This document shows, in pieces, positions 885 through 37,604 of a stretch of 39,958 nucleotides of DNA. Origin of the DNA: Flavobacteriales bacterium (lineage in GTDB: Bacteria; Bacteroidota; Bacteroidia; Flavobacteriales_D; Sanyastnellaceae); contig JALQTD010000003.1 of assembly GCA_023264155.1 (NCBI GenBank), positions 1 to 39,958 on the forward strand. Reading direction: 5' to 3'. The stretch's first letter is position 1. Every line of letters begins with the position of its first letter. The position numbers and the translations under genes are program-made. Below the pieces are notes generated by a model, which worked only from the letters and a program-made list of their open reading frames with translations, was not told the origin of the DNA and searched no databases.

Positions 885-1443
885 GTTCCATCCCCCACGA
901 CGCTACAAGCCCCGGCAGCGCAGCGCGATCCACCCGCATACCGCGCACATCGTTCTCCCGCAAATCCATTGCCCATCCGCGCATATCGGCAAAGCTCGCT
1001 CCCCGCAGCATGCACCGCTCCCAGCGCGCACCGGTGACATCCACCTGGGACATCACCAATCCGTCCGCATGCACTTCCGTAAAATCCGCCTCGCGCATGC
1101 TACCGCCTTGAAACTGTGAACGGCTCAAATCCACGCCGACCCAGCAACCGTAGTCCAGCTGCGATTCCGTCCCATGAACACTAAACAGGAATGCGTTGCA
1201 CGTGTCCCACCGCAGCCCGAGCGCTTTGCAGCGGTGCAATTCCACCTCCTGGAAGCCGGCGTCGACCACTCCACAATTCGATAAATCGCAGCCGATGAAC
1301 CGACAAGCAACAAAGCGCACCCCGCGCAAGTCCACTCCCGTGAAGTCGCAATCCTCAAAGGTGCATCCCTCGTTGCGGCGTGGCACGGGGTTGGCCGCAT
1401 CGAAGCGGACGCCTTGAAAATGTTCGTCGTCTGCGTAGGTCAT
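874..1443 (-). CDS. pentapeptide-repeat protein
   Basis: 189 aa with pentapeptide-like repeats (CTFEDCDFTGVDLRGVRFVACRFIGCDLSNC...); TACCTTTG box 4 nt upstream of ATG. Confidence 0.8.
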   Translation of the reverse strand: MTYADDEHFQGVRFDAANPVPRRNEGCTFEDCDFTGVDLRGVRFVACRFIGCDLSNCGVVDAGFQEVELHRCKALGLRWDTCNAFLFSVHGTESQLDYGCWVGVDLSRSQFQGGSMREADFTEVHADGLVMSQVDVTGARWERCMLRGASFADMRGWAMDLRENDVRGMRVDRAALPGLVASWGMELTD

Positions 1444-1447
1444 GAGC

Positions 1448-1455
1448 CAAAGGTA
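1448..1455 (-). promoter_or_regulatory. -7 box (TACCTTTG) for pentapeptide-repeat gene
   Basis: Exact TAnnTTTG, 4 nt before ATG at 1443. Confidence 0.65.
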
Positions 1456-1463
1456 CGGGGCGC

Positions 1464-1471
1464 TACTTTTG
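1464..1471 (+). promoter_or_regulatory. -7 box (TACTTTTG) for GNAT/FemAB-like gene
   Basis: Exact TAnnTTTG, 7 nt before ATG at 1479. Confidence 0.6.
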
Positions 1472-1478
1472 TGACGCG

Positions 1479-2312
1479 ATGGACTTGATCAATGTGCGCT
1501 CCTCAGCTTGGCTTGAAGGCATGGCCGCTCCTGCGGTCGATGGCCCGTTCGGGCGGCTGCAACGGGCGAGGATACAGGGAGTTTCCGCATTGGTCACCCC
1601 GTCCTGGGCGCTCGACTGTGGGGTGGAGACGACGGCTTGGACGGCGGAACTGGAAGCGGCTGTCCTCGCAGCGATGCGCGACCACCGCTCGCGGGTTGCC
1701 GTGTATGATTTGCCGGCGGGGATGCCCTTGGCAGCGGAACCGTTCAAAGGCTGGTTTGTGGAGCGCCACACCCGGATTGCGGATTTGGCAAGCTCCCTGC
1801 CCAAACACCGGTTGAAGCAAGCCCGCAAAGCGCAGCGCCTCGGCATGCGCGTCGACTTCGGCCGCAACGACGTCCCCCAAATGGTCAAATTGCACCAACT
1901 CGCTCGTGACCGAAAGTCCATTCCATCCGATGCTGCGGCCTTGACCAAGCTCTTGATGCGGCTGGCTGAAGCGCCCGGCACCCAGCAAGTTTTTGTGGTG
2001 GACGGCGCGGACCGGACTGTCGCGGGAGGCTTGTTCCTCTCCACCCGGCCGGGACAAGTCCTGTACGCCTTCGGCGGGGCGGAGCGAACTGCACATTCAG
2101 GCTTGGCCACGGTGTTGTTGCTTGTCGAGGCCATGCAGCGCGCCGCCGAAGCAGGCAAGCACCAGTTCGACTTCGGCGGATCGCAAGACCCCGGGGTCGA
2201 TCAGTTCTACCGTGAGTTCGGCGGGGAGAAGGTTTTGAAATACCGGGGCATCCTCTGTCCACCCATCCTCCGGCCTTGGCTGCGGATGCGTCGGCCCGAT
2301 TTGTTCCCATAA
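1479..2312 (+). CDS. GNAT/FemAB-like acyltransferase
   Basis: 277 aa; C-terminal GNAT-like pattern (VFVVDGADRTVAGGLFLS...LYAFGGAERTAHSGLATVLLLVEAMQRAAEAGKHQFDFGGSQDPGVDQFYREFGG). Confidence 0.65.
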   Translation: MDLINVRSSAWLEGMAAPAVDGPFGRLQRARIQGVSALVTPSWALDCGVETTAWTAELEAAVLAAMRDHRSRVAVYDLPAGMPLAAEPFKGWFVERHTRIADLASSLPKHRLKQARKAQRLGMRVDFGRNDVPQMVKLHQLARDRKSIPSDAAALTKLLMRLAEAPGTQQVFVVDGADRTVAGGLFLSTRPGQVLYAFGGAERTAHSGLATVLLLVEAMQRAAEAGKHQFDFGGSQDPGVDQFYREFGGEKVLKYRGILCPPILRPWLRMRRPDLFP

Positions 2313-2319
2313 GTCAGTT

Positions 2320-4512
2320 TCAGCGCACCAACGTCACTTCCCCGTGGTACCCAAACGGTGCGGTGGCACAGGCATGTTGTGATTCCAACACCACGTAATA
2401 CGTCCCCTCGGAAGCGCCGTCCCCTCGCCATCCGTCCAAAGCAGCATCTGTCTTCCACATGAGGTTGCCCCACCGGTTGTAAACGGAAAGGTGGTGGAAC
2501 AAAAAACTGCTGTTCGTCAATCCCAAAACCTCGTCCCCTTGCGGAGAACGGTACACGATGGCAAACCGCTCATTGCGGCCGTCGTTGTTCGGAGAAAACA
2601 CATTGGGCACCTCGTACACCACCTCGTTCAATGGCTCCGGCGCTTCGACTTCCAACGGCACTTCAAAGGTTAAATCACAACCCGCGTGGTAAAGTGAAAC
2701 TGTGCCCGTTTGTATCCCAGGCTCGTCAAACGCCAACACCACCACCTGCCCGGAATCCAACCCAACGCCCGGAAAGTCCCACCCCAATCCGTCGGAAGGG
2801 AGTCCAAGGTAGGTCACCTGTACCCGACTCAGCGAATCGCAAGACGTGATGGGCCGCACATCAAATGCCGGCTCAAACGGGTCCAACGGATACACGCTGA
2901 AGGACTGCCAGGCCGTGTCCGCGCAGGCCGTCCCTCCCGCGGCCACCACCGAAATGGTGTAGGGACCGTAATCAGCATACGTGTGCACGGGACTTGTGGC
3001 CGTCGCCGAAGTGCCATCCCCGAACCACCACTCGAACGGCCCCGACTCCGGCTCGAGGTTCACGAATTCAACCGACAGGCCTCGACAAGGTGGCGTAATC
3101 ACTTCAAAATCGGCCACGGGCAAGGGATCCAAATCCAACGAAACCGCATCCGACTCCACGCACCCGAACGACGTCGAAACCAAATTCAAGGTGCTCATTC
3201 CGCCTGGCGGCAGCCACACGCCCTCCGGGGTTTGATCCACAGCACCGCTCGGAACCGCATCCGACCCAAACTGCCACGTGTACGAACTCGTCTCCGGCAG
3301 GTTCGCGGGTGCGGATAGCGGCACCCACCAACCACCGTCCATGCAAATCGCCTCCCCCGCCTCCACTTCGACCGACCAAGGTTCTACGGCCTGCACTTCG
3401 AAGGAAGTTTCCCCAGAGCAGTCCCCGTTCGTGTAGGCGAGATTCACTTCGTAGATGCCCGGTTCCGGGAATGTCACGACAGGTTCAGCTTCTGCACTGG
3501 TGTTCCCGGGGCCGTCAAAGCCGAAGTCCCACGCGTAGGTTGCGGCTGGGTTGCTGGTTTGGTCGAACGCAACTTCCAACCCATTGCACGGAGTGAGTTC
3601 TGCAAAGAAGGGCGCCGACAAAGCGCAATTGACCACGTCGAGCGTGAAATCGCGGAGGATGCTGTTGATCAGGATGCCATCCCGCCATTCCTCCACGCAC
3701 ACCCCCATGGCATATTTGCCCAGCCCCAAGGGCGTACCGGTCAAGAGCCCCGTTTGCTCATCGATGGCAATGCCGCTCGCACTGGCCACTGGAGCACCCG
3801 CGTTGTAACCCGCCTCCCAGGTCACCTCGGTGAAGGGCGGACCGAGCGGTGGAACGGGAATGGGGGCCAACGGCATGCCGCCAAGGTAGATGGTGCACAC
3901 GTGGTAGGCGAGCGAATCGCCGTCCGGATCCGTGGCTGCGTTGTTCAACTCGAAGGGCAGGTTGTTGCAAACAAAGGCTTGCGGCAACTCCTCGAACACG
4001 GGGCTGGAATTGGGCGAATTGATCAGCGCTGTGCCCGGGATTTCCGTGCGGAGGGTGAACCCTTGATCTTCTGGAATCACCAAATTGACCAAGGCCGGAG
4101 AGCGGCAGCAACGTTGGTAGGTCACGGTGTACGAACCCGCAACCGGTTCCAAGGCGACATTGAACACGTATTCGCCGCGTTCGATGCACAGGTCATCGGG
4201 CAGCTCTGCGCAGGCATTGGGGTCTTCGGGAACGATGTTTTGGATCAAACTCGGGTCCAACGGACTCGACAACGTAGCCACCCAATCCCCATCGAGGTAG
4301 ACCCCCAGCGACGCCGACAAGTCGAAATCCGTGCCGTTCACATTGGCCGAGGAGCAATCGCGGTAAATGGCTAGGCGCACTTCGTATTCGGCGAGGCCAG
4401 CGGCGTTCATGCCGACGAACGTGTACGTCATTTCTCCTCCCATCAAGTGGGTGGCGCGCGCAGCAAAAGTCACCGCAACGGCAACGCAAAACAGAGCGAT
4501 TTGGCGCAACAT
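2320..4512 (-). CDS. secreted PKD-domain protein with gliding-motility-associated (T9SS type B) C-terminal domain
   Basis: Signal peptide MLRQIALFCVAVAVTFAARA from ATG at 4512; PKD-like WWFGDGTSATATSPVHTYADYGPYTISV; C-terminus NVFSPNNDGRNERF...SVYNRWGNLMWKT...DGWRGDG...GTYYVVL. Confidence 0.9.
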   Translation of the reverse strand: MLRQIALFCVAVAVTFAARATHLMGGEMTYTFVGMNAAGLAEYEVRLAIYRDCSSANVNGTDFDLSASLGVYLDGDWVATLSSPLDPSLIQNIVPEDPNACAELPDDLCIERGEYVFNVALEPVAGSYTVTYQRCCRSPALVNLVIPEDQGFTLRTEIPGTALINSPNSSPVFEELPQAFVCNNLPFELNNAATDPDGDSLAYHVCTIYLGGMPLAPIPVPPLGPPFTEVTWEAGYNAGAPVASASGIAIDEQTGLLTGTPLGLGKYAMGVCVEEWRDGILINSILRDFTLDVVNCALSAPFFAELTPCNGLEVAFDQTSNPAATYAWDFGFDGPGNTSAEAEPVVTFPEPGIYEVNLAYTNGDCSGETSFEVQAVEPWSVEVEAGEAICMDGGWWVPLSAPANLPETSSYTWQFGSDAVPSGAVDQTPEGVWLPPGGMSTLNLVSTSFGCVESDAVSLDLDPLPVADFEVITPPCRGLSVEFVNLEPESGPFEWWFGDGTSATATSPVHTYADYGPYTISVVAAGGTACADTAWQSFSVYPLDPFEPAFDVRPITSCDSLSRVQVTYLGLPSDGLGWDFPGVGLDSGQVVVLAFDEPGIQTGTVSLYHAGCDLTFEVPLEVEAPEPLNEVVYEVPNVFSPNNDGRNERFAIVYRSPQGDEVLGLTNSSFLFHHLSVYNRWGNLMWKTDAALDGWRGDGASEGTYYVVLESQHACATAPFGYHGEVTLVR

Positions 4513-4537
4513 TGTGAGCAATTTAGGGTGCAACCGG

Positions 4538-4545
4538 TACTTTTG
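4538..4545 (+). promoter_or_regulatory. -7 box (TACTTTTG) for GWxTD gene
   Basis: Exact TAnnTTTG, 4 nt (TGAC) before ATG at 4550. Confidence 0.65.
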
Positions 4546-4549
4546 TGAC

Positions 4550-5995
4550 ATGCTTGGAAAGAAATTCACCAGCGCGGTGCTTGGCTTTGTGGCCGGAGCG
4601 ATTTGGGGCCTCGCCCAAGCCCAGCACATCCAACTCGATGTCCTGACCTTCCAAACCCCTTCCGAACCGTACGTTGAAGTGCAACTTGAGCTGCCGGCGG
4701 CCTTGCTCGGTTTGGAACAGGTGGAAGGCGGCTTGCGCATTGCGGGGGAGGTCACCTGCATCCTGGAGCAAGCCGGGGAAGTCGTGTCGTTCAGCAAGCG
4801 GAACCTCGCTGGCCCGACCATGCCCGACAGCGCAGCGGCGCGCGCGGGCAGCCATTACCACGTCGACCGGCTGGTGGCCCGTCCCGGCGTCGGCCGCGTA
4901 ACCGTTGAGATCCGCGCGGAATCGGGGGGCGCAGCGGCCACGGCCGAGGTGGACGTCCGGTTGCTGGACTTGGATGTGCCGCATTTTTCATCGCCCATGC
5001 TCGTGGAAGCGTACGCGCCGGCGGCGGAGGATTCGCCGTACGCCCATTCCGGCGTGGACTTGTTGCCCGTGGTGGGCGCGCGCGTGGGGTTCGAGGCCGC
5101 TGAGATGCGTTATTACATGGAGCTTTATGGCGTTGATCACGTGCCCGACAGCTTGATCTACATCGCGAATTGGCTCGAGGATGCGGAGGGCGTCGAGTTG
5201 GCGGGCAGCCGGGTGTATCAGCGCGTGGTGAAAGGCCAAATCCTGCCCGTCTTCGCCACGCGCCCCTGGGGGCCCGACGCCAGTCCGGCCCGGGCCATCG
5301 TGTGGGAAGCCGTGTCGAAGACCGGCGGCGTCCTGTGCCGGGAAGCCCTCCCGATCGCCGTCGAATCGGCGGGCGGGGGGGGCGATGAACTGCTGGCGTT
5401 TGCGGCGGCTTGGACGGACCGCGAGGCGTTGCTGCGCCACTTGCAGGACCACCATCCGCGGGGCAATCCGAGCCAGCAGCGGTTGATTCGGGATGTGTTG
5501 CCGGAGGCGGATTTGGCCCAAATGCAAAGCTTCCTCGACCGCTTCTGGCGCCTCCAAAGCCCCCACGACCCCGCCGGCGCCTACGCCCAATACGTCCAGG
5601 ACATCGCCTACGTCGATGAACGGTGGGGCGCATGCTACAAGGGCCACGGGGCGGACAGCGACATGGGGTACGTCTACCTGCGTTATGGTGCGCCCAACAC
5701 GGTGGTGCAACGGCACAACGAGACTGAGTACTACCCGTACGAGATTTGGCATTACCTCCGCGCGGGCAATTTCAGCGACAAACGGTTCCTCTTCTTCAGC
5801 CCCCACATGGTCGCCGAATGCTTCACCCTGCTGCACAGCGACATGCTCGGCGAAGTGTCCAACCAAGACTGGCTCACGATTTTACGTAACCGAGAGAACA
5901 CGTTGCGCGTAACGGAATCACAACAAAACCGGTCCAACCCGCGCGACAACTACACGCGGGAAGAGCCGGAAGACCTGTTTTTCAACCCGCGCTGA
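4550..5995 (+). CDS. GWxTD domain-containing protein
   Basis: Signal peptide from MLGKKFTSAVLGFVAGAIWGLAQAQ; C-terminal DERWGACYKGHGADSDMGYVYLRYGAPNTV...YPYEIWHY typical of Bacteroidota GWxTD proteins. TACTTTTG box 4 nt before the ATG favours this start over the longer ORF. Confidence 0.8.
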   Translation: MLGKKFTSAVLGFVAGAIWGLAQAQHIQLDVLTFQTPSEPYVEVQLELPAALLGLEQVEGGLRIAGEVTCILEQAGEVVSFSKRNLAGPTMPDSAAARAGSHYHVDRLVARPGVGRVTVEIRAESGGAAATAEVDVRLLDLDVPHFSSPMLVEAYAPAAEDSPYAHSGVDLLPVVGARVGFEAAEMRYYMELYGVDHVPDSLIYIANWLEDAEGVELAGSRVYQRVVKGQILPVFATRPWGPDASPARAIVWEAVSKTGGVLCREALPIAVESAGGGGDELLAFAAAWTDREALLRHLQDHHPRGNPSQQRLIRDVLPEADLAQMQSFLDRFWRLQSPHDPAGAYAQYVQDIAYVDERWGACYKGHGADSDMGYVYLRYGAPNTVVQRHNETEYYPYEIWHYLRAGNFSDKRFLFFSPHMVAECFTLLHSDMLGEVSNQDWLTILRNRENTLRVTESQQNRSNPRDNYTREEPEDLFFNPR

Positions 5996-7084: not shown

Positions 7085-7147
7085 ACCTGAGCCCTCCGGC
7101 CACAAAGTTCGTGCTTGCCGGAGGGCGCGCCGCCCCACCTTCGCGCC

Positions 7148-8935: not shown

Positions 8936-8937
8936 AA

Positions 8938-8962
8938 AAAGGGGGACGCGAAGTCCCCCTTT
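8938..8962. terminator. bidirectional intrinsic terminator between convergent genes
   Basis: AAAGGGGGAC-GCGAA-GTCCCCCTTT perfect 10-bp stem with A-tract/T-tract flanks. Confidence 0.9.
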
Positions 8963-8980
8963 CCAATGCGTTAAAGCGCC

Positions 8981-9235
8981 TCAATTCAAATGAAGCAGCT
9001 GTTTCATGACCTGGTCAACGTATCCTTCCCATTCGGGAACATCCGCGATGGGCAGAATGGCGTTAACCCGGTTGTTTCTGCGGGAGTAGATGGCCTCGAC
9101 GTAGAAGCCTTCGAGTTCGAATATGCACAGGATGTATCGGTTCTCAACAATGCGTTGAGCGAGACAAATCCCGTGATCCCACATGTAGTTCGTTTTTTCG
9201 TCGAGTGGAAGGCGGTTGAACGATTGCAAATCCAT
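8981..9235 (-). CDS. small conserved-looking hypothetical protein (84 aa)
   Basis: MDLQSFNRLPLDEKTNYMWDHGICLAQRIVENRYILCIFELEGFYVEAIYSRRNNRVNAIL...; placed between terminator and HMG-CoA lyase. Confidence 0.7.
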   Translation of the reverse strand: MDLQSFNRLPLDEKTNYMWDHGICLAQRIVENRYILCIFELEGFYVEAIYSRRNNRVNAILPIADVPEWEGYVDQVMKQLLHLN

Positions 9236-9318
9236 GGGGTGAGGAGTTCGTAGTGAGTTGTGGTGTGGCTTACGCAAAGCCGGCCTGTCAGGTTGCGTTC
9301 CGCTGCACTTTCCTCCCC

Positions 9319-9326
9319 TACCTTTA
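9319..9326 (+). promoter_or_regulatory. -7 box (TACCTTTA) for HMG-CoA lyase
   Basis: TAnnTTTG with one mismatch, 4 nt before ATG at 9331. Confidence 0.5.
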
Positions 9327-15947: not shown

Positions 15948-17435
15948 TCACTGCCGCTCAAAACACCCCTTGTCCGCAATGCCCACATTTCGGGGAAGGC
16001 CATCGAGGTCCACCGTGATGAAGAATTGGCTTGCGCCCCCCTCCCACAAAGAGCTGTTCGAATTCAGGTGAAAGTCGCGGTCCATCGTCGAAACAAACGG
16101 CGGCGCCTCATCCGTGGTGCAGGATCCCAACAACTCCAAAGGAAAATCGTCCGATTGCACGTCCACCGCACTGTTCCAAATAAGGGGGGCATCCAACGGA
16201 TTGATGACATCCGCCACCAACTCATCAAAATCCGTGAGCCCCGCATTGTTTCCCCACATGATGCAATTCCGGAACGAGCTTCCTTCTAAACTCCTCACCA
16301 CCAATTCGCCATCGCTCGACTCATACCAATCGTTGAAAAACACCGCCGGGGCCTGTCGCACCCCTTCCGCCCAGTAATTCGCGAAGGTGCAGTGGTCCAT
16401 GTTGTAAATGCCTCCGAGCGTAAAGGCCGCACACACTTGTCCGCAATCCGTGATGAGGTTGTTCCACCCCTCGATGACGCCGCCCTGGGCAAACAGCCCC
16501 GTAGCCGACATGTTGCGGATGCGGGTGTTGGACAACGTCAACGCCGGCGCAGTGGCGGTTCCCACCGTGTCCACTTGGATGCCGATGGTGCCGCCTTCGA
16601 GGATGGCGTGGTCAATTACAGAGCCTTTGCTTCCGAAAAACCAAAGCCCGCCACGTGCCACCGTGAACGTCTCCACCCCGAAATCCGTTTCGTACTCAAA
16701 GTCCACTTGGATGCCCCATTGGCCGGGCAAGTCGGCGTAATCGGACTCGAGCCGATCGCCTCGGAACGTGATGGGAGCCGCAAGGGCCCCGTCCGCGATG
16801 AGGGTGCCTTGGTTGATCCAAATGCCGCTCTTCGCATGGAAATACACTTCTGTGCCGGGCAGGATTTGCAGGGTACAATCCTCGTCCACCACCGGCACGC
16901 CATACACCACATGCGGACGATCAGCGGCCCACGTTTCATCGCAGGGCAAGGCAAAAACGCGATCCAGGCCGCCGTGGAAGTGGGCGTTGCGTCCCCACGC
17001 TGCGAGGGTGACGGTTTGGCTCCCCCCATTCAGCTCAAACAGCAGTTCGTCTTCCACGATGAACGGCGTCGTCGCCGCATTCGGGTCCACCGTCACCTCG
17101 ATGAACACCCAAACGCTATCTCCTGACAGCACCGGAATGTCCACCACCTCCGGCCCGGGATAACCGTCCACGTTGATGCGGAAGGGACTTGAAGCATCGG
17201 CCAAACTGATGCGGTCGATGGACACGGCTGCATCATTTGGATTGTAGACCTTCAGCGGCAAGGTCACGGACCCCACGGTGGTGAAGGACGTGTCGAACAG
17301 AATCGTGTCCGCCGAAAAGGCCAATTCCAGCCCCGGCTCATCGGAAAACACCACCTCGCGGCACCCCCCAGCCGACCAAAGGGCCAACACCCCGAGCACC
17401 GCCCCCAAACTCCCTTGCCAAAACCACCTATTCAT
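15948..17435 (-). CDS. lipoprotein with right-handed parallel beta-helix-like region
   Basis: MNRWFWQGSLGAVLGVLALWSAGGC lipobox; IWINQGTLIADGALAAPITFRGDR...GSVIDHAILEGGTIGIQVD...NTRIRNMSATGLFAQGG. Confidence 0.75.
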   Translation of the reverse strand: MNRWFWQGSLGAVLGVLALWSAGGCREVVFSDEPGLELAFSADTILFDTSFTTVGSVTLPLKVYNPNDAAVSIDRISLADASSPFRINVDGYPGPEVVDIPVLSGDSVWVFIEVTVDPNAATTPFIVEDELLFELNGGSQTVTLAAWGRNAHFHGGLDRVFALPCDETWAADRPHVVYGVPVVDEDCTLQILPGTEVYFHAKSGIWINQGTLIADGALAAPITFRGDRLESDYADLPGQWGIQVDFEYETDFGVETFTVARGGLWFFGSKGSVIDHAILEGGTIGIQVDTVGTATAPALTLSNTRIRNMSATGLFAQGGVIEGWNNLITDCGQVCAAFTLGGIYNMDHCTFANYWAEGVRQAPAVFFNDWYESSDGELVVRSLEGSSFRNCIMWGNNAGLTDFDELVADVINPLDAPLIWNSAVDVQSDDFPLELLGSCTTDEAPPFVSTMDRDFHLNSNSSLWEGGASQFFITVDLDGLPRNVGIADKGCFERQ

Positions 17436-17461
17436 ACCACAAAGATGACCAAATTCGCACC

Positions 17462-18071: not shown

Positions 18072-18941
18072 TCAGCCCAAATAGCTTTTCAGGATGCGGC
18101 TGCGGCTGGTGTGCTTGAGCCGGCGGATGGCCTTCTCCTTGATTTGGCGCACGCGCTCGCGGGTCAAATCAAAGCGCTCCCCGATTTCCTCCAAGGTCAT
18201 CGGATGCTCGCCATTCAGCCCGAAATACAAGCGGATGACGTCGCCCTCACGCGGGGTCAAGGTGCGCAACGAACGCTCAATCTCCTTCCGCAGCGATTCG
18301 TTCATCAAGTCCGTATCCGGAGAAGGCGTGTCTCCGAGGCGCAGCACATCCATCATGGTGCTCGAACTTTCGTCGCCTTCCTTCAACGGCGCGTCCAAGG
18401 ACGTGTGACGGCTGGAGTTCTTCATGCTCTGCTTCACCTCGTCGAGCGTCATGTCCAACGTTTCGGCAAGTTCTGCTGCCGTCGGCGGGCGTTCAAACTC
18501 CTGCTCCAAGCGAGCGAAAGCCTTGTTGATTTTGTTGATGCTGCCGATTTTGTTCAAGGGCAAGCGCACAATCCGGCTCTGTTCGGCAAGGGCTTGGAGG
18601 ATGCTTTGGCGGATCCACCAAACGGCGTAAGAGATGAACTTAAAACCGCGGGTTTCGTCGAAACGCTGTGCGGCTTTGATCAGGCCGAGGTTGCCTTCAT
18701 TGATCAAGTCGGGCAATGAAAGGCCTTGGTTTTGGTACTGCTTCGACACCGATACTACGAAACGGAGGTTTGCTTTTGTCAGCTTCTCGAGTGCCACTTG
18801 GTCGCCTTGCTTGATGCGACGGGCCAACTCGACTTCTTCCTCCGCAGTGATCAGGTCGACGCGACCGATTTCCTGAAGGTACTTGTCAAGAGATGCAGTT
18901 TCCCGGTTGGTCACCTGCTTGGTAATCTTGAGCTGCCTCAT
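18072..18941 (-). CDS. rpoD: primary RNA polymerase sigma factor (RpoD/SigA, short form)
   Basis: [25 protein letters not shown]...[42 protein letters not shown]...[27 protein letters not shown]. Confidence 0.97.
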
Positions 18942-22696: not shown

Positions 22697-24940
22697 TCAG
22701 AACGGGTGACCGATTCCGATGTGAAATGCGCCGCGGGCCTTGGTTTGGCCCAACCATCGGGCACCCAACGGCTGCGTAGGATCGTGCAAGCGCAAGCCGC
22801 CATCGAGGCGCAGGAGGAAGAAGCCAAAATCCCAGCGCGCACCGAGGCCACCATTCCATGCCACGCTCTGCCACCGCCCGCCGGCCCACGTCGCCGAGGC
22901 CGCTACCCCCTCCGCAGCGCGCATCCACACGTTGCCCGCGTCGGCGAAAATGGCCAGGGTAAAGGACTCGGTCAGCGGCTCGCGGTACTCGATGTTCAGC
23001 TCGGCGCGCCAATCGCCCACGCCGCGGATGGCTCCTTCGGCCTCGGCGTCCACCACGCCCCCGGGCCCCACATCCCGGGTCGCCCAGCCGCGCAATCCGT
23101 TCACGCCGCCGCCGAAAAAACTGCGGTCGTAGGGCAGGCTGTTCAAGTTGGGTCCGACCCAGGCCACCCCGAGGTAGGCGCGGGCGGCGATTTGGCCTGG
23201 AGCTTCCGGATCTTCCCGGGTACCGAAACGCACATCTTGCTCCACCCGCACAAATTGCGCCACCGGGACCCCGGCCATGACGAATGCTCCTTCTTCGTTC
23301 TGAGGCAGTTGGAGCGCATCCCCCAAGTGCCGCCACAGCTGGCCGCTCCACTCCACGGAAGAGCGCACACCGCCAAGCCACGTCGCCTGCTCCCTCCACC
23401 CGGATCGCCACGCGAGGCGCGTCAAGGTCGAGGCGTAGTCCTGAAAACGGGATTTCAAAAACGGATTGCCCTGTGCGTCCAACCATTCCACAAACGCATC
23501 TTCAGCCTCCAAGTCCGTGTAGTTGAACTCAAATAAATCAATATTAACCAAGCTATTACGCGACTCGTTCTCGACAAACTCAAACCCATACCGCATGGCA
23601 AAGGCCTTCCGCAAATAATCCGGACGAGCCTCCCGGCGGAAGGCCAGCCCAAGCTCCGAACGGGCCGCATTCGATGGCCGCAACCGGTGCAATCCGAGCG
23701 GGGGAATGCCCAAAATCGAATAGTTCGCCTCGAGCGACCACTCCCCGCTGTTGGGCACCAGGGCCGCTTCGTTGTAACTGAAGGGCTGGGTGGAACTGAT
23801 ACCCGCTGTTGCCGTCCACTCCAATTGGTCTCCACGCCCCGAAACATTGCGGTCCGTCCAGCTCACGCGCAATAGCGGACCGTAACGCACATCGGTACGC
23901 GTGAAATCCACCTCCGTTTGCAACCCAAACCGTTTGCGCTGCCACAGCCGAACATCCACGTCCACCCACCGCTGTCCCGCATCGTCTAACCGGGTTGTCG
24001 TCGGCATTTCGACCCGACTCACGGCCGGCAGGCGCATGAGCCGCCGATACGTGGTCTCGAGCGCTTCCCGGTCATACAAGGCGCCGATTTCCGCGGCTAT
24101 CAGGTGATCCAGGACCGCTTCCCGCAGTGGATGCACCAGCCCGCTGTCCTGCTCCTGCACCGCAATGCTCCCAAGCCGCAGGCGTTCATGTGGGCGGGCC
24201 AAATCCGATTGCACCACCGGCCGAATCACCACCTTCACCCCGATCCGGTGCTCCCCTGCCCCGCGGCTCCCGATCGAGTCGGCCTCGTACGCGATGTACG
24301 CCTCGTCGAACTCTGCATACCCTTTGGACTGCAGCACCCGCGCAATGCGCCCACGCTCGGCGTCCAACACATCCGCATCAAAGGCCCTCCCCGGTTGCAC
24401 CAGCGACTGCGGCATGACATCCCGCGGGTTAATGCCCGTCCCTTCCATGCTCCACTCCACTCGCCCCACCTTCCACAATGCGCCCAAATCCATGACGTAC
24501 CGCACCGCCAGCCGCCGATTCCGCAACGTATCCAACTCCACTGCTCCCTGAGCGTCCAAATACCCCGCCCTCCGTGCGAGCGCCTCCAAATTGCGCACGG
24601 TCCGATCCCCCATTGCGGCATCCCAAGTCACAGGCGCCTCGCCGAACGTTTCCACCATCCAATAGCGCAGGCCTTTGTCCGGCGATTTCCCCCGCGCAGC
24701 CCGCGCCTCCCGCCGCCGTGACAACACTTCAGGCCGAACGAGCTCATGCGCCCGCAACCGCAAGCGGACCCCGAGCGTCCGTTGGTTCTCCACCAAGCGC
24801 AGCACGGACTCCCCGTCCAAATCCACTTCCTGCCCCCATGCAATGCCTTGCTCCTCCACCAACCACTCCCCCGCCGGCAAATTCCGCGTCAATTGGCAGC
24901 CCGTCAGCAGAAAAACCATGGCGTACATTTGTGCCCGCAT
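22697..24940 (-). CDS. BamA/TamA-family outer membrane protein (lipoprotein signal)
   Basis: Short signal with lipobox [20 protein letters not shown]-like N-terminus; C-terminal [21 protein letters not shown]...[24 protein letters not shown]...[15 protein letters not shown]. Confidence 0.85.
24924..24931 (+). promoter_or_regulatory. -7 box (TACATTTG) for TrmH/SpoU gene, inside opposite-strand CDS
   Basis: Exact TAnnTTTG, 7 nt before ATG at 24939. Confidence 0.6.
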
Positions 24941-26854: not shown

Positions 26855-26862
26855 TACTTTTG
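26855..26862 (+). promoter_or_regulatory. -7 box (TACTTTTG) for DEAD-box helicase
   Basis: Exact TAnnTTTG, 4 nt before ATG at 26867. Confidence 0.65.
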
Positions 26863-26866
26863 TCTC

Positions 26867-28162
26867 ATGACCTTCGAGGAACTCAAACTCACCCGCCAGT
26901 TCATTCGGGCTGTCGAACAGGCGGGCTACAACGCACCGACCCCCATCCAAGAGAAGGCCATTCCCCCCATTCGCTCCGGGCAGGATGTCATCGGCATCGC
27001 CCAAACGGGCACGGGAAAAACCGCGGCATTCCTGCTTCCGACGTTGCAAAAACTGAAGTACCCACAAGGCATGGAACCCCGGGCGGTGGTGTTGGCCCCG
27101 ACCAAGGAACTCGTGCTGCAAATCCATGAACAGGCCGAACGCTTCGCCCAGTTCACCGAATTGCGGTGCTTGGCGTTGTACGGTGGAATCGGGTACAAGA
27201 AGCAGCTCGAGGCAGTGCAGGCCGGGCAGGATTTGCTGATTGCCACCCCCGGTCGGTTTTTGGAAATCTACCAGCGCGGAGGGTTCAACCCGAAAAAAAT
27301 CACCACGGTGGTCCTCGATGAAGCGGACCGCATGATGGACATGGGGTTCATGCCCCAGTTGCGGCTTGTTCAGGAATTGGTGCCGAGCAAGCGACAGAAC
27401 CTCCTCTTTTCCGCTACGTTTCCGGAACGGGTGCAACGGCTGGCGGATGAGTTTCTGCTTTGGCCTACGCGGGTGGAAGCCACCCCCCAATCCACTCCGG
27501 TAGCTACCGTTCAACAATTCAGCGCAGCGCTCCCGAATGTCGCCACCAAGTTGCACTTCGTGAAATACCTGCTGACCGAGCGGTACCCCGAAGCGCGCGC
27601 CATGGTCTTCGTTCGCGAAAAGGACCAAGCCGAGCTCATCAGCCGCGGACTGGCCGATGCTTTGAAAGGGCAAGTGCGTTCCATTCACAGCAACAAAGGA
27701 CAAAACAGCCGCATCCACGCCATGGACCTGTTCCGGGAAGGAGCCATCCGATGCCTCGTCAGCACCGACGTGGCTAGCCGCGGCATCGATGTACCCGAAA
27801 CGTCGCTCGTCATCAACTTCAGCGTGCCGCGGGATCCCCACGACTACGTGCACCGCATCGGCCGGACCGGTCGGGCCTTCCGCGACGGGGAAGCCTTCAC
27901 GCTCGTGGACCCGTCCGAAGGGTATGCACTCGAACGCATCGTTGAATTGACCCAAACCCCCATCGCCCCATTCGACGTCCCTGCGGAATTGCCCGTAGAG
28001 GAAACGCCCCGGTGGGAAAAACAAGCCCAAGCGCGCACCATCGACGGGGAGATGCGGAAACGCGACCCCAACTACAAAGGCGCCTTCCACGAGAAGAAGA
28101 AAAAAACAGCGAAACGGCCGGTCAAGAAGGGCAACCGCCCCCCCAAGGCCAAACGGGGCTAA
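26867..28162 (+). CDS. DEAD-box RNA helicase
   Basis: Q-motif, IAQTGTGKTAAFLLP, VLDEADRMMDMGF, SATFP, VSTDVASRGIDVP, HRIGRTGRAFRDG; basic C-terminal tail. Confidence 0.97.
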   Translation: MTFEELKLTRQFIRAVEQAGYNAPTPIQEKAIPPIRSGQDVIGIAQTGTGKTAAFLLPTLQKLKYPQGMEPRAVVLAPTKELVLQIHEQAERFAQFTELRCLALYGGIGYKKQLEAVQAGQDLLIATPGRFLEIYQRGGFNPKKITTVVLDEADRMMDMGFMPQLRLVQELVPSKRQNLLFSATFPERVQRLADEFLLWPTRVEATPQSTPVATVQQFSAALPNVATKLHFVKYLLTERYPEARAMVFVREKDQAELISRGLADALKGQVRSIHSNKGQNSRIHAMDLFREGAIRCLVSTDVASRGIDVPETSLVINFSVPRDPHDYVHRIGRTGRAFRDGEAFTLVDPSEGYALERIVELTQTPIAPFDVPAELPVEETPRWEKQAQARTIDGEMRKRDPNYKGAFHEKKKKTAKRPVKKGNRPPKAKRG

Positions 28163-29525: not shown

Positions 29526-29533
29526 GTTCGCTC

Positions 29534-31191: not shown

Positions 31192-31523
31192 CACATGGAC
31201 ATTTGGTCGGCCTTGCCCATCATTTGGACCCCGTGCACCAACGAGGCTCCTCCGCGGATGGCTCCGGCCACGTGCACGGCCTCCATCATGGCCTCCTTGG
31301 ATTCACCGCGACCGACCAAGTCCTGGGTGTACGCATCGATGCAATACGGGCACTGAATGGCGTGGGCCACTCCCAGCGCAATCAGGGCTTTCTCCCTGGC
31401 CGTCAGCGCCCCCTCCTCAAACACATCGCCGTACCAAGCGAAAAACTTCTCCGCCAGCGGGCCGTCCCAGTCTGCGATTTTTCCAAACCGCTTCAGGTCT
31501 TTCGGGTCATAATACGTTTTCAT
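31191..31523 (-). CDS. arsenosugar biosynthesis-associated peroxidase-like protein (CMD/AhpD-like)
   Basis: LIALGVAHAIQCPYCIDAYTQDLVGRGESKEAMMEAVHVAGAIRGGASLVHG; CPYC active-site-like motif; stop overlaps arsS start (TGATG). Confidence 0.88.
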   Translation of the reverse strand: MKTYYDPKDLKRFGKIADWDGPLAEKFFAWYGDVFEEGALTAREKALIALGVAHAIQCPYCIDAYTQDLVGRGESKEAMMEAVHVAGAIRGGASLVHGVQMMGKADQMSM

Positions 31524-31550
31524 GCGCCGAATATCGCAACTTTGCGGGCA

Positions 31551-32738
31551 ATGAACGCATTTGTTGACACCCTTCAGGGACTCCGCTCACATCCGGGCAA
31601 GATTGGCATCATCGGCGCGGGCGCCATGGGATCGGGCATCGCCCAAGTGGCCGCAGCGGCGGGAAATCAGGTGGTCCTCGTCGACGCCCAGCCCGAGGCC
31701 TTGGAACGCAGCGAACACGCCCTCGCCAAGGTCATGGCCCGTCAAGTGGAGAAAGGGCGCATGACCGCCGATGAAAGCGCCGCCTTGCAAGGCCGCATCC
31801 ACCGAACCACCGAAATGGCGGATTGTGCCCCCTGTGCGCTGGTGATTGAAGCCATCGTCGAACGGCTCGAGGTGAAGCAGCAGGTGTTTGCGGAAGTGGA
31901 AAAAGCGGTAGGCGATTCGGCCGCACTGGCCACGAACACGTCTTCGTTGGCGGTAACTGCCATTGCCAGCGCATTGCAGCGTCCCGAGCGGCTGATCGGC
32001 TTGCATTTCTTTAATCCAGCGCCGTTGATGCCGCTGGTCGAGGTGATCCCGGCGCTGCAGACCGCCCCGGGGTTGGCCGATGCGGGCGTGGCGCTGATGG
32101 CAGCGTGGGGCAAGTCCCCTGCCCTGGCAAAGGACACGCCGGGGTTCATCGTGAACCGCGTGGCGCGGCCCTTCTACGGAGAGGCCTTGCGCATGTTCGA
32201 GGAGGGCATTGCTGACATGGCGACCATCGACGAGGCCATGCGCCGGGTCGGGTTCCGCATGGGGCCATTCGAGCTGATGGATTTCATCGGAAACGACGTG
32301 AACTACGCCGTCACCGCCTCGGTCTTCGAAGCGATGTACTTTGATCCGCGTTACCGGCCTTCTCTGGTCCAAAAACGCCACGCAGAAGCCGGTTGGCTCG
32401 GCCGCAAAGCCGGTCGGGGCTACTACGATTACGCGGAGGGCGCCTCGCGGCCTGCCCCAACCGAGGACGGAGCGCTGCTCGGGCGCATTGCGGACCGGAT
32501 TTTGGCCATGCTCATCAACGAGGCGTACGACGCGGTGTTCATGCACATTTGCTCCGAGGCAGATGTGGAAACCGCGATGACGCGTGGTGTCAATTATCCG
32601 AAGGGGCTCATCGCTTGGTCGCGTGAGCGCGGGCTGAGCAAGGTCGTTGCGGACCTCGATGCGCTCGCCGCACGCTATGGCGAGGACCGTTACCGCTGCT
32701 CGCCGTTGCTGCGGTCGGCCGCCAACGACCAAGCATGA
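31551..32738 (+). CDS. 3-hydroxyacyl-CoA dehydrogenase (PaaH/Hbd-like)
   Basis: KIGIIGAGAMGSGIAQVAAAAGNQVVLVDAQPEALER...ATNTSSLAVTAIASALQRPERLIGLHFFNPAPLMPLVEVI...NRVARPFYGEALRM. Confidence 0.95.
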   Translation: MNAFVDTLQGLRSHPGKIGIIGAGAMGSGIAQVAAAAGNQVVLVDAQPEALERSEHALAKVMARQVEKGRMTADESAALQGRIHRTTEMADCAPCALVIEAIVERLEVKQQVFAEVEKAVGDSAALATNTSSLAVTAIASALQRPERLIGLHFFNPAPLMPLVEVIPALQTAPGLADAGVALMAAWGKSPALAKDTPGFIVNRVARPFYGEALRMFEEGIADMATIDEAMRRVGFRMGPFELMDFIGNDVNYAVTASVFEAMYFDPRYRPSLVQKRHAEAGWLGRKAGRGYYDYAEGASRPAPTEDGALLGRIADRILAMLINEAYDAVFMHICSEADVETAMTRGVNYPKGLIAWSRERGLSKVVADLDALAARYGEDRYRCSPLLRSAANDQA

Positions 32739-33493
32739 CGTCGGATGCCCGTCAAGGCATGGGTGCGCAGGGTTGAGCCGTCGGGCAAGGTGCGCACGAT
32801 GCCTTCAGCGGTGAGCTGATCGAGGCGCACTTCGCCGGCGGCGTGCAAAATGCTTCCCTGCGCCACGAGGAGTCCTACGTGGACCACGCGGCCGGATGGG
32901 TTGTGGAAGAACGCCCAGTCGCCGGTGGTGTGGTCGGGGAAGGCGATGGGAATGCCCAATTGGATTTGGTCTGCTGCATCGCGGTCCACGAAGGCATCCG
33001 GCTGGGTCACCCGCGCCAACACCTGCATCAACCCCGAACAATCCACCCCCAGCGCGGTCCGTCCGCCCCACTGGTAAGGCGCTCCAAGCCACGCCCGCCA
33101 CCCCGTGTCCAAAATCGGTTGCTCGATGCGCACGGGCGTGCCACACGGCGCGAACAGCTGTCCCTCCCGGGAGTGCAACCACCCGCCCGCCGGTAGCCAG
33201 CGCGATCCGCTGTCGCCCCACACCACTTGGGTGCACGCCGACCGCAGCAAATAATTCGGCTCAAAACCGGCCGCCACTTGCAACATCTTGCCGTCGCACC
33301 ACCCTTCATAGCCGTCGTGGCCGCAGCGCACCTGCACCCAATCGCGGGCGCCGTGGGCGAGCACTTCCGCCGATTCACCGATTAGCAATTGCGTGACCTG
33401 CTCGGCAGCATCCGAGGCTTCCATCCGCAACGGCACAACGGACGCCGACGCAAAAGCGACGCGGCCGATTTCCGGTTGAAACGGGCTGGCCAA
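32690..33493 (-). CDS. NlpC/P60-family (C40) peptidase with SH3-like N-terminus; probable non-ATG (TTG) start
   Basis: APYQWGGRTALGVDCSGLMQVLARVT...DWAFFHNPSGRVVHVGLLVAQGSILHAAGEVRLD. EIGRVAFASASVVPLR, expected at the N-terminus, lies upstream of the first ATG (33424). Confidence 0.8.
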   Translation of the reverse strand: MASPFQPEIGRVAFASASVVPLRMEASDAAEQVTQLLIGESAEVLAHGARDWVQVRCGHDGYEGWCDGKMLQVAAGFEPNYLLRSACTQVVWGDSGSRWLPAGGWLHSREGQLFAPCGTPVRIEQPILDTGWRAWLGAPYQWGGRTALGVDCSGLMQVLARVTQPDAFVDRDAADQIQLGIPIAFPDHTTGDWAFFHNPSGRVVHVGLLVAQGSILHAAGEVRLDQLTAEGIVRTLPDGSTLRTHALTGIRRHAWSLAADRSNGEQR

Positions 33494-33501
33494 GGAACGA
33501 T

Positions 33502-34680
33502 TTAGATGAGTTCGATGCAGATGGCCGAAGCGCCACCGCCTCCGTTGCAAATGCCGGCCGCTCCGCGCTTCAATCCCCGCTGCTTCAACGCATTGACCAA
33601 CGTCACCACGATGCGCGACCCGCTCGACCCCAAGGGATGGCCCAGCGAGACCGCGCCACCGTTGACGTTCACTTTCTCCGCGTCCAAGCCGAGCAACTTG
33701 TTGTTCGCCAAGCCCACCACAGAAAATGCTTCGTTCAGTTCCCACAAGTCCACGTCGTCGTTCGTCCAACCTGCCTTAGCGAGGGCTTTGGGGAGCGCTT
33801 TAGCGGGTGCCGTAGTGAACCACTCGGGCGCCTGTGCTGCATCGGCTGAGGCCACTACTTTGGCGATGGGGGTGAGACCGTATTGTTTGACGGCTTCCTC
33901 GGAGGCCAACACCACCGCGCTTGCACCGTCGTTCAACGTGGAGGCATTCGCGGCCGTGACCGTTCCTTCCTTGTCGAAAGCTGGGCGCAACGTGGGGATC
34001 TTTTCCATCTTCACGTTCGTGAATTCCTCGTCGCGGGAGACCACCACAGGCTCGCCACGGCGCTGCGGGACCTCAACCGGGACCACCTCGTCGTCAAAAC
34101 GACCGGCATTCCAAGCCGCCGTTGACCGCTCGTAACTGGTGACCGCGAACGCGTCTTGCTCCTCGCGCGAGAACGCCATGTCCTTGGCGCACAGTTCGGC
34201 GCAGTTGCCCATGTGCGTTGCGTTGTAGACATCGGTCAATCCGTCGAGCAGCATGCCGTCCTTTGCTTGGACGTGTCCCAATTTCACCGCGCTGCGGGAC
34301 TGCAGGTAGTGCGGGACTTGGCTCATGTTTTCCATGCCACCGGCCACCACGACATGGGCATCGCCGTTGCCGATGGCTGCTGCGCCGAGGGAGATGGCCT
34401 TCATTCCGCTCGCACAGACCTTGTTCACGGTCGTGCAGGGCACTTCGTGGGTCAGGCCAGCGCCGATGGCGGCTTGCCGGGCGGGCGCCTGGCCCAATCC
34501 GGCTTGGAGGACATTGCCCATGAACACTTCGTCGACCGCTTCAGCGGGCAATCCGGACCGGTCGAGGGCTCCGCGGATGGCCACTGCGCCGAGTTGAGGG
34601 GCGGGGACGCTGGAAAGGGCTCCGAGGAAGCTGCCCATCGGGGTGCGGGCGGCGGATACGAGGTAGACGGTCTTCGACAT
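33502..34680 (-). CDS. acetyl-CoA C-acetyltransferase (thiolase)
   Basis: TTVNKVCASGMKAISLGAAAIGNGDAHVVVAGGMENMSQVP...NVNGGAVSLGHPLGSSGSRIVVTL...AAGICNGGGGASAICIE. Confidence 0.97.
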   Translation of the reverse strand: MSKTVYLVSAARTPMGSFLGALSSVPAPQLGAVAIRGALDRSGLPAEAVDEVFMGNVLQAGLGQAPARQAAIGAGLTHEVPCTTVNKVCASGMKAISLGAAAIGNGDAHVVVAGGMENMSQVPHYLQSRSAVKLGHVQAKDGMLLDGLTDVYNATHMGNCAELCAKDMAFSREEQDAFAVTSYERSTAAWNAGRFDDEVVPVEVPQRRGEPVVVSRDEEFTNVKMEKIPTLRPAFDKEGTVTAANASTLNDGASAVVLASEEAVKQYGLTPIAKVVASADAAQAPEWFTTAPAKALPKALAKAGWTNDDVDLWELNEAFSVVGLANNKLLGLDAEKVNVNGGAVSLGHPLGSSGSRIVVTLVNALKQRGLKRGAAGICNGGGGASAICIELI

Positions 34681-34864
34681 GGGAGTTGGTTTTCGATTTG
34701 CAGGCCAAATTTAACGCCAACAGCCCCCTCGGCCACCTGATTTGGCCCATCAAACCGCCTTCCCGCGCGGGCCGCAGCATGCAAGGCGAAACGCACGCCG
34801 CATTGAAACCTTCCCCGGCCATCCTCCGTAAGCCCACCCGGTAATCATTTCAGCCCCCTGCAAC

Positions 34865-35050
34865 ATGAATCACAACGGCGTTCCGCTCGACCACGTACCC
34901 TCGGCCTTGGAGCAATACAAGTCGCTCATTCGGCACGTGCATGCGGAACCGGTCATGATGCGGCGCGCGATGCGCCTGGCCTTCAGGTCCTTGCCGCAGC
35001 AGGAGACTGTGGCTCTTCGGGACTGGATCCAGACCCACTACACGTTGTGA
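34865..35050 (+). CDS. small hypothetical protein (61 aa)
   Basis: MNHNGVPLDHVPSALEQYKSLIRHVHAEPVMMRRAMRLAFRSLPQQETVALRDWIQTHYTL; stop abuts the convergent rluA-like gene; no competing ORF. Confidence 0.5.
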   Translation: MNHNGVPLDHVPSALEQYKSLIRHVHAEPVMMRRAMRLAFRSLPQQETVALRDWIQTHYTL

Positions 35051-36103
35051 TTACGGCTTGTCGCTGAAGCGGCGCGGGGCTTGATCGGTCGGGCGATTCC
35101 GCTTCGAAGCGCTTGGGCGGTTGCGTTGTTCACCGCGTTCGGGCCGCCGCTCGCGGGTGGCGGGCTGGGCTGATTTACGCTGATCGGCTGCGAGCTCCGC
35201 TTTTGAGCGGGCGCGAGGCCCTTTTCCCCCCTTCATCAGGTTTAGGAATTCGCGGGGAACGCGGGTTTTGGCCTCCACTTGCTCGCCGTTTGGCCCCTCT
35301 ACCACTGCGCGGTACAAATGTAGACCACTGCGATCCAACGGATTCGGAGCCGACTCGCCCTTACCGATGATCATGCACTGGGCGCGGCGCAATCCGCTCA
35401 TCAGCGCGGGAATGTCCTCGAATCCTACCTCGAACTTGAGCATCGTGTGCGTTGTCGTAGCCCGCATGGTGCGATAAGGGTACGCCACACGTTCCCGCTT
35501 TTTACTGCCCTCCACATCGCGAAAGGCGAACACCTCGTCGTCGGCCGGCAAATGGCCTTCCACCACCACATAGAGTCCCTGCTCGAAGCGTTTCCAATGG
35601 GTTTGCAAGTGAACGCGCCATTGCAAATCCTTGGCAATAAAGCAGATACCAGATGATTCCTTTTCGATGCGGTTGACGAAATGCACGTCGGTGCATTCAG
35701 GGCGCGCTTGGGCCATCCAATCCTTCATCCGCGTGTAGGACGTCTTCACCTTTGGATTGGGCGAAGCGAAGACCCAGCCTGCAGGTTTGATGTAGGCCAA
35801 AAGAAAATCGTCTTCGTAAACCACCTCAAACGGGGCAGGTGCGTTGAGCGGCGACTTCGAAGCTCCGCCCAATTGAAAGTCCTTCACGGCTGGTTTCAGA
35901 GGGGACTCCTTCTCCTTGCCGGCGTCGTATACAACGGCATCACCGGCCTTCAATTCGGATGACGGGATGCGAATCACCTCTCCGTTTACGGTTACGAACC
36001 CGCCTTTGATGGCCTTCCGCGCGCGGGTGTTCGTGGGCAATCCGCCTTGCCCTACCAACGCTTCGAGCAGCGTAGTGGGCGCGGACACTTTCATATTGAT
36101 CAT
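35051..36103 (-). CDS. RluA-family pseudouridine synthase with S4 domain
   Basis: S4-like RKAIKGGFVTVNGEVIRIPSSELKAGD; HFVNRIEKESSGICFIAKDLQWRVHLQTHWK. Confidence 0.88.
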   Translation of the reverse strand: MINMKVSAPTTLLEALVGQGGLPTNTRARKAIKGGFVTVNGEVIRIPSSELKAGDAVVYDAGKEKESPLKPAVKDFQLGGASKSPLNAPAPFEVVYEDDFLLAYIKPAGWVFASPNPKVKTSYTRMKDWMAQARPECTDVHFVNRIEKESSGICFIAKDLQWRVHLQTHWKRFEQGLYVVVEGHLPADDEVFAFRDVEGSKKRERVAYPYRTMRATTTHTMLKFEVGFEDIPALMSGLRRAQCMIIGKGESAPNPLDRSGLHLYRAVVEGPNGEQVEAKTRVPREFLNLMKGGKGPRARSKAELAADQRKSAQPATRERRPERGEQRNRPSASKRNRPTDQAPRRFSDKP

Positions 36104-36107
36104 GGCG

Positions 36108-36115
36108 CAAAGGTA
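36108..36115 (-). promoter_or_regulatory. -7 box (TACCTTTG) for rluA-like gene
   Basis: Exact TAnnTTTG on the minus strand, 4 nt before ATG at 36103. Confidence 0.65.
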
Positions 36116-36139
36116 CGGGGAACGTGTATTGAACCGGAA

Positions 36140-36180
36140 GTCGAAAGAAAACGCCCCTTGGGGGTGCGTTTTCCTTCGAC
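36140..36180. other. long terminator-like hairpin in a divergent intergenic region
   Basis: GTCGAAAGAAAACGCCCCTTGGGGGTGCGTTTTCCTTCGAC; about 17 pairs with 2 mismatches, flanked by AACCGG (36132-36137) / CCGGTT (36187-36192). Confidence 0.75.
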
Positions 36181-36198
36181 TCTAAACCGGTTAAATAT

Positions 36199-36212
36199 CC
36201 CGCCGAAGCGGG
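36199..36212 (-). other. UUCG-tetraloop hairpin on minus strand
   Basis: Minus strand CCCGC-TTCG-GCGGG followed by ATATTTAA. Confidence 0.65.
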
Positions 36213-36338
36213 AAGCAAGCGTTGCGTATACGCTCAATTCTCCCATGAACGAAGTTGCTGCAAAACCCCGGACGTTTTCAACAGGAAACGAACACGTTTT
36301 TAACGCGTTTTGAACAACTGCCCTTGCCCCAAAGGCAA

Positions 36339-36346
36339 TACCTTCG
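36339..36346 (+). promoter_or_regulatory. -7-like box (TACCTTCG) for mscS-like gene
   Basis: TAnnTTTG with one mismatch, 4 nt (TGAC) before ATG at 36351; same TGAC spacer as at 4546-4549. Confidence 0.5.
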
Positions 36347-36350
36347 TGAC

Positions 36351-37604
36351 ATGACGGAAGAACTCGCACCTTGGATTTTGCGTTTGCTGCAGGAATTCAA
36401 TTTGTTAAGACCCGAGACCAACCACGGATTGGGCCTGTTTTTGCTGGGGATGGGATTTATTGTCGTGGCCTTGATCATGTGGCGCGTTTCGAGGTGGATT
36501 TTGGATAAGGTCTTGCACGGATTGGCGCGCCGCACCAAGGCCACCTGGGACGATCAGTTGCTGAACCGCCCCCTCCTTTCCCGGCTTTCCTTCTTCATCC
36601 CGCTCGCCATCTTGAATGTCGCTCAGGAGCTGTTGCTCCCGTTGCACCCGGGGACCCAAGAATTCATAGGAAGGGGATTGGATTTGGCCGTGATTGTGAA
36701 CATGCTGCTCGTGGGATTTGCATTGGCCAACGGCATCGAGGACCTGTTGAGCGGGATCCGCCAGTTGCGTGACAAGCCCATTTCGAGCTACATCCAATTG
36801 AGCAAAATTGCCGCCTCGGTCCTTGCGGGCATTGCCATCATCGCCTTGCTCATCGGCCAGGACATCGGCGTGGTCATCGGTGGACTTGGCGCAGCGACGG
36901 CAATCATCTTGTTGGTTTTCCGGGATGCATTGCTCGGCTTGACGGCGAGCGTGCAGCTCAGCTCTGGAGATTTGGTCCGCATCGGTGACTGGGTGCAAAT
37001 CGACAAATACGGCGCGGACGGGGACGTGGTCGAAATCAACCTCACCACCGTCAAAGTGCGCAACTGGGACATGACATTCACGGTCGTGCCGACCTACGCC
37101 CTCATTTCGGAGAGCTTCAAGAACTGGCGGGGCATGAGCGAGTCTGGGGGACGCCGCATCAAGCGCTCGATCACCTTGCGCGCCTCGAGTGTTCGGTTCG
37201 CAGACAGCGCTTTGCTCGAGCGAATGGAAGGCATCCAAGTCCTCGCCCCGTGGTTGCGCGAGCGGACCAAAGAAATCGCTGACGCCAATGCTGCCAACCA
37301 AGCTCGCACCGACGTGGAAGTGAATGGGAGGCGGCTGACCAACATCGGTTTGTTCCGCAACTACACCGAACGCTACCTCCGCAACCACCCGGGCATCAAC
37401 CAAGAAATGACCTTGCTGGTGCGCCACTTGCAGCCCACAGGCGAAGGCGTACCGGTTGAATTTTATTGCTTCTCCAAGGACAAGGCGTGGGATGCGTACG
37501 AATCGTTGATGGCCGACATCCTCGACCACTTGCTCGCCGCCGCCCCTTACTTCGGACTGGAAGTGTTCGAATGGCGCATGGCCACTCCCACCCCTGCAAG
37601 GTGA
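36351..37604 (+). CDS. mechanosensitive ion channel (MscS family)
   Basis: VLAGIAIIALLIGQDIGVVIGGLGAATAIILLVFRDALLGLTASVQLSSGDLVRIGDWVQIDKYGADGDVVEINLTTVKVRNWDMTFTVVPTYALIS. Start MTEELAPWIL preferred to the longer ORF at 36255. Confidence 0.93.
   Translation: MTEELAPWILRLLQEFNLLRPETNHGLGLFLLGMGFIVVALIMWRVSRWILDKVLHGLARRTKATWDDQLLNRPLLSRLSFFIPLAILNVAQELLLPLHPGTQEFIGRGLDLAVIVNMLLVGFALANGIEDLLSGIRQLRDKPISSYIQLSKIAASVLAGIAIIALLIGQDIGVVIGGLGAATAIILLVFRDALLGLTASVQLSSGDLVRIGDWVQIDKYGADGDVVEINLTTVKVRNWDMTFTVVPTYALISESFKNWRGMSESGGRRIKRSITLRASSVRFADSALLERMEGIQVLAPWLRERTKEIADANAANQARTDVEVNGRRLTNIGLFRNYTERYLRNHPGINQEMTLLVRHLQPTGEGVPVEFYCFSKDKAWDAYESLMADILDHLLAAAPYFGLEVFEWRMATPTPAR

Follow-up and report, generated by a model that had tools for sequence, protein, structure and literature searches.

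Promoter boxes close to start codons point to leaderless mRNAs beside a leadered class in a family of Bacteroidota

Bacteroidota ribosomes do not use Shine-Dalgarno (SD) sequences, and a contig from an uncultivated member of the phylum raises the question of where transcription and translation begin in genes that have the box TAnnTTTG four nucleotides before their ATG. The window, by which we mean the whole stretch of 39,958 nucleotides that was analysed, is a contig of a 2.55-Mb assembly (424 contigs, 88% complete). A preliminary description had listed four such sites and proposed that the resulting mRNAs have essentially no 5' untranslated region. All four sites are real and have the 4-nt spacing: TACCTTTG at 1448-1455 on the minus strand, before the ATG at 1443-1441 of a pentapeptide-repeat gene (874-1443; 11.8 bits); TACTTTTG at 4538-4545 on the plus strand, before ATG 4550 of the gene 4550-5995 that had been labelled 'GWxTD'; TACTTTTG at 26855-26862 (plus strand), before ATG 26867 of a DEAD-box helicase gene (26867-28162); and TACCTTTG at 36108-36115 (minus strand), before ATG 36103 of an S4-domain/RluA-like gene (35051-36103; 11.8 bits). 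The pattern TANNTTTGNNNNATG occurs exactly four times in the window, compared with 0.14 occurrences expected from dinucleotide shuffles, and none of 100 shuffles contained at least four. The answer that we reach, to which we assign a probability of about 0.88, is that TAnnTT(T/C)G is a -7 element and that about half of the recognisable promoters would place the transcription start site (TSS) at or near the ATG, giving leaderless mRNAs.

The distance between box and start codon was examined in 94 contigs of the same genome (1.67 Mb, 61% G+C), in which 1263 genes were called by hexamer coding potential; upstream signals were not used, and start codons were set by a simple caller. Counts of TAnnTTTG at 0 to 8 nt before an in-frame ATG are 1, 0, 0, 1, 49, 15, 12, 10 and 3, followed by a total of 7 at 9-14 nt and of 72 at 15-27 nt. 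A genome-wide histogram of this kind had been suggested as a check of the leaderless proposal, and the peak at 4-7 nt is sharp (49/15/12/10): permuted and reversed control boxes give 0-4 counts at every distance and no peak. The abrupt step from 1 to 49 between 3 and 4 nt, the gap at 9-14 nt and the second rise at 15-27 nt indicate two promoter classes, one leaderless and one leadered. Genome-wide, the pattern TAnnTTTG-N4-ATG is found 75 times and the reversed pattern 10 times. With a weight matrix (score of at least 7), 207 boxes lie at 4-7 nt where 6.1 are expected, and about 239 lie at 8-79 nt after subtraction of the background. Leaderless-type promoters thus make up about 46% of the recognisable promoters within 80 nt, precede about 19% of the genes starting with ATG and stand beside a leadered class, so that the word 'pervasive', which had been used of leaderless mRNAs, has to be qualified.

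The box is broader in this genome than the published consensus. Allowing one mismatch at 4-7 nt brings out the form TAnnTTCG, with 66 cases against 1.4 expected, and TAnnTTCG-N4-ATG occurs 91 times in the assembly (reversed pattern, 18). TAnnTTTG and TAnnTTCG are mixed in the same way in both classes (72 and 66 at 4-7 nt; 65 and 47 at 15-40 nt; p=0.37), whereas a 245-kb sample of Flavobacterium sp. Root186 has 4 TTCG and 23 TTTG boxes in the 4-7 and 15-40 nt bins together. An excess of TAnnTTCG is present in most members of the family and largely absent outside it, one other family (f10) excepted. No TTTG motif at -33 was found in the leaderless or the leadered class. Such an element is an unreliable criterion because it was likewise not identified in the RNA-seq data of F. 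johnsoniae (PMC6847099). As a separate observation, the position 4 nt ahead of the TA is enriched in G genome-wide, with a frequency of 0.57 in leaderless and 0.44 in leadered promoters; this G is possibly an extended -7 contact.

When the window is scored with a matrix trained on the whole genome, 13 of its genes have a box of 6.5 bits or more at a distance of 4-7 nt from the ATG, ten of them at 4 nt, one at 6 nt and two at 7 nt. Besides the four exact sites, the 4-nt boxes are CACCTTCG at 7136-7143 (plus strand, 7.1 bits), before the in-frame ATG 7148 of a competence-family gene, 72 nt upstream of the called start; TACCTTTA at 9319-9326 (plus strand, 8.3 bits), before ATG 9331 of an HMGL-like gene; CATCTTTG at 17440-17447 (minus strand, 8.2 bits), before ATG 17435 of a beta-helix gene (15948-17435); CAAATTCG at 17450-17457 (plus strand, 7.3 bits), before ATG 17462 of an HhH-GPD gene; GATATTCG at 31528-31535 (minus strand, 6.5 bits), before ATG 31523 of a CMD-family gene; and TACCTTCG, a box of the TTCG form, at 36339-36346 (plus strand, 11.1 bits), before ATG 36351 of an MscS-like gene (36351-37604). 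The box CAACTTTG at 31537-31544 (plus strand, 8.9 bits) lies 6 nt before ATG 31551 of a 3-hydroxyacyl-CoA dehydrogenase gene. The two 7-nt spacings are those of TACTTTTG at 1464-1471 (plus strand), before ATG 1479 of a GNAT/FemAB-like gene (1479-2312), and of TACATTTG at 24924-24931 (plus strand, 11.0 bits), before ATG 24939 of a SpoU/TrmH-like methylase gene. Pfam matches support the pentapeptide-repeat, GNAT/FemAB, HMGL-like, DEAD-helicase, 3-hydroxyacyl-CoA dehydrogenase, S4-domain, MscS-like, SpoU methylase, HhH-GPD, CMD and competence assignments. The beta-helix match of the gene 15948-17435 is below the Pfam curated cut-off, and the gene 4550-5995 has no Pfam match at 1e-4; its start at 4550 is also backed by a same-genus orthologue, aligned from residue 4.

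Most of the individual sites named in the preliminary description are confirmed by this scoring. The boxes of the HMGL-like, MscS-like and beta-helix genes, presented there as having one mismatch, are genuine on the genome matrix, and that of the MscS-like gene is in fact a standard box of this genome. The 7-nt spacings at 1479 and 24939 were also given correctly, and the start of the MscS-like gene at 36351, preferred there to 36255 because of its box, is the one picked by the gene caller without knowledge of the box. A 5-nt spacing reported for siaB is not supported: the sole candidate found, TAGCTGTT, is located 5 nt ahead of the SiaC gene (12515), differs from the core at two positions and scores -4.0 bits. 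The presumed reader of the boxes, the primary sigma factor RpoD, is itself encoded in the window (18072-18941, minus strand). It contains a WWIRQ motif and is closest, with 85% identity, to a protein of the MAG 'Flavobacteriales bacterium Ww168' among named records, from which nearer relatives may be absent.

The primary-sigma (sigma-ABfr) promoters mapped in three other Bacteroidota share with those described here the core TAnnTTTG and the lack of a clear -33 motif. The -7 element of F. johnsoniae lies 4-5 nt from the TSS (PMC6847099) and the box of F. psychrophilum is at -12 to -5 (PMC9723704); the 4-nt distance from box to start codon found here is the same as the published distance from box to TSS. 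If the primary sigma factor reads TAnnTT(T/C)G as its -7 element, transcription would begin some 4-5 nt beyond the box: at 4-nt spacing this is the A of the start codon itself, and at 5-7 nt it is a position 1-3 nt ahead of the codon. The 5' end of the mRNA would then be the AUG or lie very close to it, and a 5'-terminal AUG could be recognised directly by the ribosome with the initiator tRNA. At its short end the histogram stops at 4 nt, just where any smaller distance would remove the A of the AUG. This lower edge, which coincides with the box-to-TSS spacing of F. johnsoniae, and the strong peak across the family lend support, at the level of DNA sequence, to the leaderless mRNAs first proposed for the window. 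The other half of the promoters would give leadered mRNAs, in which the leader usually measures about 11-36 nt and has an A-rich stretch at -12/-11; lengths of 4-10 nt would be avoided.

The most serious alternative is that the close boxes are real promoters but that the TSS lies further downstream or is multiple, or that the true start codon comes later, so that these genes would not in fact yield leaderless mRNAs. In its favour, the start codons are computational calls, and the A peak behind leadered boxes is found at 6-7 nt, not at 4 nt; the TSS may therefore shift by a few nucleotides, or this A may be part of the leader signal. With the most frequent spacing, 4 nt, a TSS 6-7 nt past the box would, however, deprive the transcript of its AUG. 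In 72 of 86 cases, moreover, the ATG linked to a box is also the start that the caller had selected on coding potential only, and the starts of the DEAD-helicase orthologues align at residue 1 across the family. We consider this alternative improbable.

Marginally less probable still is that the sequence at -12 to -5 is a non-SD element for translation initiation within a longer mRNA. SD signals are absent in Bacteroidota, and leadered genes have their A-rich stretch at the same distance (-12/-11), so this region does seem to matter for translation. A translation signal would need a further promoter upstream, and genes with a close box rarely have one: among operon-head genes whose upstream spacer measures 90 bp or more, a second, upstream box is present in 9 of 59 close-box genes and in 158 of 331 others (p=1.6e-6; background with the reversed matrix, 5/59 and 47/331). 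Close boxes are found at 28% of divergent starts but at only 10% of tightly spaced same-strand positions. At 15-40 nt upstream the box recurs in the same mix of TTTG and TTCG forms, and it is identical to the published promoter consensus. Given the exclusivity with upstream boxes and the shared mix, we reject a translation element; TAnnTTTG and TAnnTTCG appear to behave as promoters. The last alternative, a T-rich motif that falls near ATGs by chance and without functional link, gains a little from the small number of exact sites in one window and is refuted by the window shuffles, the reversed-pattern counts, the flat controls and the 207 matrix boxes against 6.1 expected, in a genome of 61% G+C.

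In the 1.67-Mb sample there are 22 divergent gene pairs with spacers of 20-45 bp; in ten of them both genes have a close box, and in eight one of the two does. Three of the ten two-sided pairs are in the window, with 26-35 bp between the ATGs, and their spacers consist mostly of two opposing -7 boxes. In the spacer 1444-1478 the boxes at 1448-1455 (minus strand) and 1464-1471 (plus strand) are 8 bp apart, in 17436-17461 those at 17440-17447 (minus) and 17450-17457 (plus) are 2 bp apart, and in 31524-31550 those at 31528-31535 (minus) and 31537-31544 (plus) are separated by 1 bp. Such spacers are so short that the upstream part of each promoter must sit within the opposite gene, and the two promoters of a pair can hardly be occupied simultaneously.

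Conservation of the spacing was read in detail for one gene, the DEAD helicase. Of 23 family members, whose orthologues have 52-87% protein identity, 16, among them this genome, have retained the box at a spacing of exactly 4 nt; the start codon is ATG in ten of these and GTG in six, and in one GTG case the box reads TAnnTTAG. Within this genome TAnnTTTG-N4-GTG shows no excess (8, control 10), and GTG accounts for only about 5% of called starts. Summed over 37 genomes of the family, TAnnTTTG is found 3080, 869 and 1673 times at 4, 10 and 18 nt before ATG, and each of the 37 has more boxes at 4 nt than at 10 nt. The excess at 4 nt is weaker elsewhere in the order (1871, 997 and 2049 in 23 genomes of other families), and in the wider phylum it is variable and absent in many groups. 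In the sample of Flavobacterium sp. Root186, 2 boxes fall at 4-7 nt and 21 at 15-40 nt, compared with 72 and 65 in the genome of the window (p=6e-5), and this near-absence of close boxes agrees with the published transcript maps of Bacteroidota. The DNA thus establishes the box, its spacing, the two classes, their occurrence throughout the family and the exclusivity with upstream boxes. With less certainty, we think it probable that this is a family of Bacteroidota with dual initiation: roughly half of its promoters leaderless, with a box broadened to TAnnTTYG in this genome, and half with a leader that carries an A-rich non-SD signal. In this reading leaders of 4-10 nt are excluded, and some divergent genes share spacers of about 26-45 bp made up mostly of back-to-back -7 boxes.

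Such a lineage would be unusual, as the Bacteroidota with mapped transcripts are mostly leadered. In F. johnsoniae 87% of leaders are longer than 10 nt (PMC6847099), in B. thetaiotaomicron 3.7% are shorter than 10 nt (PMC7366714) and in F. psychrophilum 5.5% of mRNAs are leaderless (PMC9723704), so that mRNAs with short or no leaders make up about 4-13% in the three species. The lineage studied here differs in its share of about 46% leaderless-type promoters, a figure taken from the DNA pattern, and in having TAnnTTCG nearly as often as TAnnTTTG. In the case of F. johnsoniae, an explanation by leaderless mRNA was weighed and dismissed, since most transcripts are leadered; our lineage seems to provide a counter-example from within the phylum. 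In Actinobacteria, Deinococcus-Thermus and archaea (PMC3160421; a mycobacterial case is cited in PMC6847099) a large share of the genes likewise has a promoter element at a fixed short distance from the ATG, beside a leadered class, but the box and the sigma factor are different. A survey of leaderless genes found them in 1 of 37 Bacteroidetes/Chlorobi genomes (2.4%) and by its own statement detects only Pribnow-like promoters (PMC3160421). Looking for such boxes, it would have missed this lineage. In the open literature we found transcript maps, surveys and theoretical work, but no description of a lineage of Bacteroidota rich in leaderless genes. If our reading is correct, leaderless initiation would be a main answer of this family to the problem of starting translation without SD pairing. 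Besides a clear genomic signature and an explicit list of genes and relatives, the lineage supplies an improved rule for choosing start codons when such genomes are annotated, and it widens the -7 consensus.

Genes of the leadered class resemble what has been described for the phylum. A is enriched at -12/-11 (0.58-0.59), and SD cores are depleted before starts, at 5.0% in the interval -18 to -4 compared with 8.9% at -33 to -19. Together with the CCUCC anti-SD core of the 16S rRNA, these features are shared with non-SD initiation of the A-rich or Kozak-like type, in which the anti-SD is occluded (PMC6847099, PMC9976891). That mechanism covers the leadered half of the promoters only and not the leaderless class. 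No 16S match was obtained in the window's genome or in its genus neighbour G001. The CCUCC core is intact in five of the six family members that were read, and loss of the anti-SD is thereby rejected as a common cause; the exception is G024, which has UCUCC. The corresponding 3' end, ATCTCC instead of ACCTCC, was seen in L257 of G024 and also in L256 of G052, which belongs to another family. Finally, C is strongly preferred genome-wide at position -1 of the ATG, with a frequency of 0.56 in operon heads and 0.51 in tightly spaced same-strand genes. Its presence in the latter indicates that this preference does not come from the promoter alone.
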